DNA of 64,000 nucleotides from positions 310,001 through 374,000 of the forward strand of contig NZ_RKLQ01000002.1 in the NCBI RefSeq assembly GCF_019599405.1, in the 5' to 3' direction. A model generated the notes under the pieces. The model did no database searches. It worked only from the letters and a program-made list of their open reading frames with translations, and had not been told where the DNA came from. Shown here piece after piece: positions 8,456 through 54,377 of the stretch (position 1 is its first letter; the number at the start of each line of letters is the position of its first letter). Source of the DNA: Haloarcula salinisoli (GTDB lineage: Archaea > Halobacteriota > Halobacteria > Halobacteriales > Haloarculaceae). The position numbers were made by a program, and so were the translations under genes.

Positions 8456-8536
8456 GGCTGTCGTTCGTACGCCGGGGATATGAGCGGTTCGTCAGCGTAG
8501 CGAGTAGTGCTTAGTTTAGCAGAAAGCAACTCAGAG

Positions 8537-8551
8537 AGCCAGAAAGCCCCC
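8537..8551 (+). repeat. Orphan copy of the structured-repeat outer arm
   Basis: AGCCAGAAAGCCCCC matches the outer-arm sequence of the two nested palindromes at 14290-14564 and 53997-54258. It stands alone in the divergent spacer between the isomerase and the methyltransferase. No second arm is present nearby, so it is either a remnant or an independent protein-binding site. Confidence 0.4.
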
Positions 8552-14075: not shown

Positions 14076-14200
14076 GTACGTACATGCGGCCGACGGGAAT
14101 AAGGACCTTCCCCCATCCAGTCGCCGTTCTAGAGGTAGCTGGTTCGGGTGTTTCGAGCCTTGAAAGCCACAACGCACCGCTAGCTCCAACTGATCACGAC

Positions 14201-14313
14201 ACCGCGAACCGCCAGAAAGCCCCGCTAGTAGTCGTCGTCAGAGACACCGCGAACCGCCAGAAAGCCCCGCTAGTAGTCGTAGTCAGAGACACCGCGAACC
14301 GCCAGAAAGCCCC
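14201..14313 (+). repeat. 45-bp tandem repeats, left array (three arms)
   Basis: The arm sequence ACCGCGAACCGCCAGAAAGC and its continuation begin at 14201, 14246 and 14291, an exact 45-base period. The last copy is the left outer arm of the nested palindrome at 14290-14564. Spacers of about 20 bases between arms (GTAGTCGTCGTCAGAGA-like) are nearly identical to one another but differ from those of the right array. No coding potential is evident. Confidence 0.85.
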
Positions 14314-14564
14314 GAGCGGCTACGGTCCCGCGGCTCGCTGCGCGCTTCACTCGCTTCGCTCGCTCCAGTGCTTGCGTCGCCGAGGTTCCCGTAGCCGCTC
14401 GCCCCTTTCAGCCCCACCCATGCCGGTTGGCCAAATAGCGTTGGGTGGGGCTGAAAGGGGCGCTTGGCTAAACGACGGCGGCTGACGCAAGCACCGCAAC
14501 GTAGTGAGGAGCGCAGCGAAGCCCCCGAGTTTAGCCAAGCGGGGCTTTCTGGCGGTTCGCGGTG
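14290..14564. repeat. Nested-palindrome (cloverleaf-like) element, copy 1
   Basis: A 275-base element. Outer arms: perfect 24-bp inverted repeat (14290-14313 with 14541-14564). Left side hairpin: 13-bp stem CGAGCGGCTACGG (14313-14325) with 14389-14401. Central hairpin: perfect 21-bp inverted repeat with core CCCCTTTCAGCCCCACCC (14400-14420 with 14442-14462). Right side hairpin: 13-bp stem CGCTTGGCTAAAC (14461-14473) with 14529-14541. Both side loops contain CGCTGCGC-like and GTGCTTGCGTC boxes in inverted orientation. Together the four helices make a cruciform or cloverleaf. Copy 2 is at 53997-54258. Confidence 0.85.
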
Positions 14565-14744
14565 CCATGCTCAATCGTTGCTAGCGGGGCTTTCTGGCGG
14601 TTCGCAGTGCCATGCTCAATCGTTGCTAGCGGGGCTTTCTGGCGGTTCGCAGTGCCATGCTCAATCGTTGCTAGCGGGGCTTTCTGGCGGTTCGCGGTGC
14701 CATGCTCAATCGTTGCTAGCGGGGCTTTCTGGCGGTTCGCGGTG
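14541..14744 (-). repeat. 45-bp tandem repeats, right array (five arms)
   Basis: The complementary arm GGGGCTTTCTGGCGGTTCGC begins at 14541, 14586, 14631, 14676 and 14721, an exact 45-base period, with near-identical spacers containing CATGCTCAATCGTTGCTAGC. A further degenerate copy follows near 14765-14785. This array is inverted relative to the left one, so the locus is an inverted pair of direct-repeat arrays around the palindrome. The spacers are constant, so it is not a CRISPR array. Confidence 0.85.
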
Positions 14745-53944: not shown

Positions 53945-53996
53945 AATTATTCTGCTTCGTATCTCCTCGCAGTTTCATCGCTGACGGCAGTTCCCA

Positions 53997-54258
53997 ACAG
54001 CCAGAAAGCCCCCGGAGGCTCAGGGGCTGCGACTCGCTGCGCTCCTCGGCCTTCGGCCTGCGGTGCTTACGTCGTCTCGCTCCCTGAGCCTCCGGCCCCT
54101 TTCAGTCCCACCCCGTGGACCAGCCGACCGGGCGGGACTGAAAGGGGCCGGTCGCTCGACGTACGAGACGACGCAAGCACTGCACTGAGCGAACGGAGTG
54201 AGCGAAGGAAGCGCACAGCGAGTCGCAGTAGTCGAGCGACCGGGGGCTTTCTGGCTGT
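53997..54258. repeat. Nested-palindrome (cloverleaf-like) element, copy 2
   Basis: A 262-base element. Outer arms: perfect 19-bp inverted repeat (53997-54015 with 54240-54258). Left side hairpin: 14-bp stem CCGGAGGCTCAGGG (54012-54025) with 54082-54095. Central hairpin: 22-bp stem with one mismatch, core CCCCTTTCAGTCCCACCC (54092-54113 with 54130-54151). Right side hairpin: 13-bp stem CCGGTCGCTCGAC (54148-54160) with 54231-54243. The loops hold the same boxes as copy 1 (CGCTGCGC and GTGCTTACGTC, inverted in the other half). No flanking 45-bp arrays. The rest of 53945-54377 has no gene. Confidence 0.85.
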
Positions 54259-54377
54259 ACTGAACCCGGTTCACCCTGACTACGATGTCCGTCACACCCA
54301 TACAGACACTCACAAACAATACCGTACCTAGCGCCGAAGTCTTAAACAGGCAGAACCCCGTAAGCGCAACTATACTT

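Follow-up and report, generated by a model that had tools for sequence, protein, structure and literature searches.

The spacer between the MATE gene and dim2 of Haloarcula salinisoli contains a set of nested palindromes (53997-54258 of the window, by which we mean the whole 64,000-nt stretch of DNA analysed), and it raises the questions of what kind of element this is, whether it moves, and what keeps its stems paired. The first-pass annotation described the locus as the second copy of an element also present at 14.3 kb (copy 1), and proposed a dispersed family with one insertion at each of the two positions and none in genes.

All four stems listed there are present in the window sequence (Table 1), namely an outer stem of 19 bp (ACAGCCAGAAAGCCCCCGG / CCGGGGGCTTTCTGGCTGT), a left stem of 14 bp, a central stem of 22 bp with a single A/C mismatch, and a right stem of 13 bp. 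Relative to dinucleotide shuffles, the single-strand fold is lower by 14.9 standard deviations in this copy and by 13.3 in copy 1. The core CCCCTTTCAG[T/C]CCCACCC indeed differs by one base between the two copies. Left and right loops of the element are approximately reverse complements of each other, and outer and side stems have CCGG/CGG bases in common, so that branch migration of the junction is possible. By analogy with intact-end copies, which carry an 8-bp target site duplication (TSD) 36 bp outside the outer motif and the terminal inverted repeat (TIR) RGTASTGTTTAG, the real ends of the element probably lie about 35-45 bp beyond 53997-54258.

Table 1. Features of the two element copies and of a relic in the window.
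Feature	Position	Strand	Remark
Full mobile element including decayed TIRs (probable)	53964..54291		boundaries placed by analogy, +/-10 bp
Outer stem, left strand (ACAGCCAGAAAGCCCC)	53997..54012	+	
Left arm, structured module; minus strand folds (5'-CUGAAAGGGG..GGGGCUUUC-3')	54003..54105	-	covariance model R1, 97 bits, E 4e-19; covariation
Left hypervariable stem, 5' strand (CCGGAGGCTCAGGG)	54012..54025	+	pairs with 54082-54095
Left hypervariable stem, 3' strand (CCCTGAGCCTCCGG)	54082..54095	+	
Central stem, left strand (CCCCTTTCAGTCCCACCC)	54096..54113	+	
Central loop (CGTGGACCAGCCGACC)	54114..54129		inverted in G384 orthologue
Central stem, right strand (GGGCGGGACTGAAAGGGG)	54130..54147	+	
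Right arm, structured module; plus strand folds	54138..54252	+	covariance model R1, 101.7 bits, E 4e-20
Right hypervariable stem, 5' strand (CCGGTCGCTCGAC)	54148..54160	+	pairs with 54231-54243
Right hypervariable stem, 3' strand (GTCGAGCGACCGG)	54231..54243	+	
Outer stem, right strand (GGGGCTTTCTGGCTGT)	54243..54258	+	
Copy 1, left arm	14304..14411	-	R1, 118 bits, E 9e-24
Copy 1, right arm	14451..14550	+	R1, 100 bits, E 9e-20
Copy 1 plus flanking 45-bp tandem repeats of outer motif	14198..14744		
Relic: terminal-repeat-like GTGCTTAGTTTAG and solo outer motif CCAGAAAGCCCC (at 8539)	8506..8550	+	

Copy 1 has 45-bp tandem repeats (outer motif plus GCTAGC) on both sides, at 14198-14332 and 14538-14744, and intact ones are missing at 54.0 kb. 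These arrays lie outside the basic unit, as had been supposed, though degenerate relics of them flank many other copies. Similar arrays were also seen beside H. rara copies at two loci. As far as two-ended copies are concerned, the proposed count of a single insertion at 14.3 kb and another at 54.0 kb is right; the solo outer-motif relic has to be added to it.

The proposal of a dispersed family is strongly supported. Using the two window copies as queries, blastn gave 97 and 102 matches in the 4.03-Mb genome, and motif parsing yielded about 53 two-ended copies, which are intergenic according to an ORF heuristic, as are those of the window. The outer motif CCAGAAAGCCCC occurs in 71 + 70 copies genome-wide, compared with 0 for the reversed control. 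Motifs usually stand in the order O> I> <I <O (O, outer; I, inner), and one-armed, armless and solo forms occur besides. The full element is an inverted duplication, each half being an arm of about 110 nt between AGAAAGCCCC and CCCCTTTCAG. An arm has the layout AGAAAGCCCC - stem X - core - X' - CCCCTTTCAGTCCC, and two arms are opposed around a short palindromic centre. Armless copies, for example at C2:45640-45694, read ..CCAGAACGCCCCACCC..GGGTGGGGCTTTCTGG.., and some copies have small twin-hairpin inserts (..GTTCG, hairpin, GTGATGAC, hairpin, GAAC..) embedded within arms and stems. Two tnpB elements of this genome also carry twin-hairpin inserts of this kind at their 3' ends. A phage or viral origin was rejected, as neither viral contigs nor 50,697 phage records gave a match.

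What distinguishes the arms is that their stems vary while the pairing is kept. The 275 distinct arms whose stem could be recognised carry 196 different 12-nt X sequences, and 3137 of 3300 pairs are Watson-Crick pairs (95%) versus a mean of 1642 (50%) with partners shuffled; the 95% is somewhat inflated by the requirement of at least 8 pairs, which left out 26 candidates below 8, and these as all our stem statistics count related sequences as if independent. In an alignment of 44 arms, paired cells amount to 92.7% versus 71.4% after shuffling and at most 48.3% after sliding, 21 of 29 pairs have changed in both partners, and the covariation score reaches 0.526, compared with 0.140 after shuffling and 0.103 at most after sliding. 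The second and third helices are separated by an internal loop, GANGYAA opposite RCARCGA, that is nearly invariant. Free variation of a stem with pairing kept around a near-invariant loop usually signals function. A second arm type, B (..GCGGTCGCT..CATATC..GATAG..), occupies the equivalent slot in other haloarchaea. At one locus (G165, C1:1458500-1460500), one arm of type A and one of type B lie side by side with the outer motifs turned towards each other, an arrangement opposite to the usual one.

The remaining pairs are informative about the folding strand. Among the non-Watson-Crick pairs of 216 distinct stems, wobble fits the outward strand by 67:10 (82:10 for raw arms). Once the inner end of the stem is excluded, it is 30:9 (p = 0.001), and inside this genome alone the asymmetry is weak (7:5). 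By RNA folding, the outward strand is the stabler one in 205 of 237 arms of type A and in 20 of 22 of type B, a bias that could owe part to the conserved loop sequences. Since each element contains both orientations, neither replication-strand bias nor neighbouring transcription can cause the strand asymmetry. Together, the asymmetric wobble and the conserved internal loop suggest that folding is selected on a single strand, be it RNA or single-stranded DNA, read outward from the centre. The arms display what is expected of a new structured-RNA family, i.e. covariation above shuffled and slid controls, a conserved unpaired motif, and strand specificity, with which single-stranded DNA is also compatible. 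Rfam 15 gave no match to the element above the gathering score, the sole window match being a tRNA; matches below threshold at the element were mostly miRNA and were taken as chance.

These data also bear on a functionless, passive MITE, in which template-switching copies one half of the quasi-palindrome onto the other and ectopic gene conversion shuffles the arms. Template-switch correction of quasi-palindromes is established, and the near reverse complementarity of left and right loops as well as the common nested twin-hairpin inserts and stem-base deletions would suit such a process. It does not, however, predict the 67:10 asymmetry, a near-invariant internal loop between freely varying stems, or fixed outer and inner motifs beside them, and solo arms persist by the same genes on plasmids of several genera. 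A passive MITE of this kind is a rather improbable account of the arms.

Regarding the folded molecule, single-stranded DNA would yield the same sign of strand asymmetry, G.T wobble being tolerated in DNA hairpins too, so that the sign fits RNA and single-stranded DNA alike. The arms could accordingly be DNA hairpins bound by a recombinase or replication protein, comparable to integron attC sites or IS200/IS605 ends, with arm exchange being hairpin recombination. Arms, outer stem and central stem can make a four-way junction, the arms are exchanged as units (see below), and solo arms lie near genes of OB-fold, single-strand-binding-like proteins on plasmids of several genera. However, no recombinase or Y1 transposase gene was found beside those elements that were read, the internal loop is conserved across its full width, which is more like an RNA motif, and tnpB 3' ends of this genome are unlike the arms. 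Recombining DNA hairpins are an unlikely explanation, and RNA is the more probable folded molecule. IS605/TnpB ends as host of the arms were rejected, as the tnpB 3' ends differ at the loci read in this genome.

Mobility was most evident in another genome. G240, from the same order and another family, has five copies of about 377 bp with GTASTGTTTAGATWAG at both ends and the inverted termini RGTASTGTTTAGAT. Two of the five have exact 8-bp target duplications (TCAGCGAC, TCGAACCG), two more match at 6 of 8 positions, and one has none; two copies at separate loci are 99.7% identical across 377 bp. A 62-bp copy in G240 (C7:1459889-1459950) consists of scarcely more than two terminal repeats. In the genome studied here (G000), termini like GTGTTTAGTTTAG occur in some copies and are decayed at the window copy. 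The armless copy at C2:45640 has an exact 8-bp duplication (AGGGCGGC) and a clean empty site in H. rara, a genome with another six empty sites. In the genome studied here, exact target duplications are rare, and the idea that direct repeats around all copies are TSDs was rejected, as there is no overall excess over chance and only two symmetric cases. The element at C2:774435-774685 lies symmetrically between the two copies of a 13-bp direct repeat (AGTACGCCCGCTG), which exceeds the 8 bp of the duplications at other sites. A terminal-repeat search for a transposase partner found no transposon-sized pair of the element's termini in G000 or G240.

Mobility of the family is thus established outside this genome, by near-identical copies with 8-bp TSDs in another genus, and is supported by the empty sites in H. 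rara; for the window copy, past transposition is suggested by its family. The checks proposed in the first-pass annotation divided in the same way, since TSDs are found at C2:45640 and in two G240 copies and none is left at 54.0 kb, and since clean empty sites exist in H. rara for other copies, whereas the 54.0-kb copy has counterparts in the same spacer of three other Haloarcula genomes.

Alternatively, each arm might be an independent mobile repeat of about 110 bp that targets palindromes of host elements, like the SMR-A reported in Haloquadratum. Length and inverted ends of the arms agree with this, as do the unrelated arm types A and B between identical flanking motifs, the insertion-like placement within a GAAAG/CTTTC palindrome, and the existence of armless and one-armed copies. 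But the uninserted hairpin CTGAAAGGGGCTTTC had to be rejected as ancestral target, there being no exact copy of this palindrome anywhere in the genome, arms without AGAAAGCCCC/CCCCTTTC flanks were not seen, and armless forms can be explained as deletion footprints between C runs. Moreover, the whole two-armed element moves as a single unit in G240. Independent mobility of the arms therefore seems doubtful to us, and we retain the two-armed element as the moving unit.

Comparison with relatives showed that the site persists while the arms do not. In G394 (taken to be H. rara SHR3) and G395, the MATE-dim2 spacer holds full elements with different stems, and in G384 a remnant that lacks arms and has its centre inverted. 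Neither MATE nor the element is present there in most other Haloarcula genomes, and G396 and G299 have arm remnants by dim2. The closest relative of the window's left arm is the right arm of G394 (89%). From the orthologues at the same site and this relationship it follows that the window copy is old and that arms have switched sides. At about 30 orthologous sites the element stays and arms are replaced or flipped. Comparison of this genome with H. rara at 39 orthologous arm positions gave identities of mostly 0.4-0.7, with flanks about 90% identical, and nearly every arm has a closer relative elsewhere within its own genome. Stem matches at 11 or 12 of 12 positions were obtained for 4 of 35 same-side and 4 of 34 opposite-side comparisons, and for 2.5% of unrelated sites. 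Low identity at the same site, closer relatives within the genome and side swaps show that arms are replaced or flipped while the frame is kept. The route may be gene conversion through the shared motifs. The picture thereby goes beyond that of the first-pass annotation, in that the side stems form hypervariable cassettes, which turn over at a site that persists, and in that the arm is also found alone.

Constancy of position at most orthologous sites, together with strong hairpins, would also be expected of a bidirectional transcription terminator or another regulatory repeat kept by the host at fixed positions. Yet empty sites exist by intact flanks, and neighbouring genes are without orientation bias (20 co-directional, 9 divergent, 6 convergent, rest undetermined in the heuristic ORF map), for which reason a terminator role was rejected; a host-kept repeat of this kind is very improbable.

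For the taxonomic spread, a covariance model (R1) was built from the arms, which recovers the window's four arms at E 1e-18 or better. With E <= 1e-5, R1 had matches in 64 of 77 haloarchaeal genera (232 of 292 genomes), copy counts per genome being lower bounds. When 148 genomes from across the phylum were searched, 18 had matches, all 18 of them haloarchaea of the window's own order, and none outside the haloarchaea was found in this sample. Arm-like matches were present on 21 haloarchaeal plasmids. On plasmids of several genera, solo arms have an OB-fold DNA-binding protein gene nearby and often a PQQ beta-propeller gene as well (six loci). The element family is real, widespread and unusual, and folding of the arms is supported by covariation. 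Apart from the work on SMRs and PATEs, no description of the family was found in the papers searched.

Taking the evidence together, we consider it probable that this is a MITE-like element with paired, fast-turnover folding cassettes, whose arm fold is selected on one strand, most likely as RNA. According to this model, the element would be a non-autonomous DNA transposon of the MITE kind with termini RGTASTGTTTAGAT.., an 8-bp target duplication and a gene-free length of about 330-390 bp with both arms. A putative transposase encoded elsewhere, presumably of DDE type and acting in trans, would recognise the termini. The interior would consist of two modules of about 110 nt in opposite orientation, each folding on one strand to a long hairpin with, in order, a GAAAG/CUUUC base, GGGG, the 12-bp hypervariable stem, a second stem, the GANGYAA/RCARCGA loop, a third stem and a variable tip. 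Selection would maintain the fold of one strand, most likely RNA read outward from the element centre, and the stem sequence would drift through compensatory change while the fold is kept. After insertion, whole arms would be replaced or swapped from other copies, the simplest route being ectopic gene conversion via AGAAAGCCCC and CCCCTTTCAGTCCCACCC. Because such swaps use the conserved flanks, site and frame would persist and arms turn over.

In a broader sense, chances seem about even that the arm represents a class of structured nucleic acid, either RNA or single-stranded DNA with strand specificity, that is new and extends across the haloarchaea. Such a class would combine a near-invariant internal loop with freely varying stems, and would be present both by itself on plasmids and as pairs of exchangeable cassettes, set back to back in a mobile palindrome, where it would turn over far faster than neighbouring sequence. 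Arms are found in about four fifths of the sampled haloarchaeal genomes, with up to dozens of copies each. Their turnover at fixed sites provides a natural record of how cassettes are exchanged in polyploid archaea, and the intact ends of the MITE frame offer a handle on how haloarchaeal small mobile repeats move.

Several known systems resemble parts of this element. Integron attC sites are strand-specific palindromes with variable sequence and conserved structure, and the arms are likewise sequence-variable, structure-conserved and strand-specific; they differ in that there are no gene cassettes between element copies and that the conserved feet are unlike those of attC. REPINs and BIMEs, inverted REP pairs moved by RAYT, share the inverted hairpin pair, the high copy number in spacers and a conserved motif at the hairpin foot, whereas the arms are several times larger and multi-helix, with a conserved internal loop, and the element has TIR and TSD. 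PATEs and IS200/IS605 elements have near-terminal palindromes without terminal inverted repeats or target duplication, so the presence of both shows that the element is not a PATE. SMR-A of Haloquadratum walsbyi are about 110 bp long with prominent inverted ends and no target duplication, form families without sequence similarity that share one target type, and sit within palindromes of other elements, i.e. IS605-type ends and PATEs, their mobilisation being described as enigmatic (PMC3119063). The arms, compared with SMR-A by description only, are also haloarchaeal, about 110 bp long and placed with inverted ends within palindromes. Unlike SMR-A, they covary and lie within a MITE frame having its own TIR and 8-bp TSD, the TSD belonging to the moving unit, and the tnpB 3' ends of this genome are without arms. 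MITEs share the frame of the element, although no parent transposon with its termini was found in G000 or G240. A terminal inverted repeat is present in the five G240 copies and a fixed duplication of 8 bp in G240 and at C2:45640, with the window copy lacking it and C2:774435 departing with 13 bp. Like MITEs, the element is short, gene-free and dispersed in spacers, with terminal inverted repeats and an 8-bp target duplication; it differs from them in its contents, two inverted structured modules whose stems are hypervariable and covary, and which turn over where the site stays fixed.
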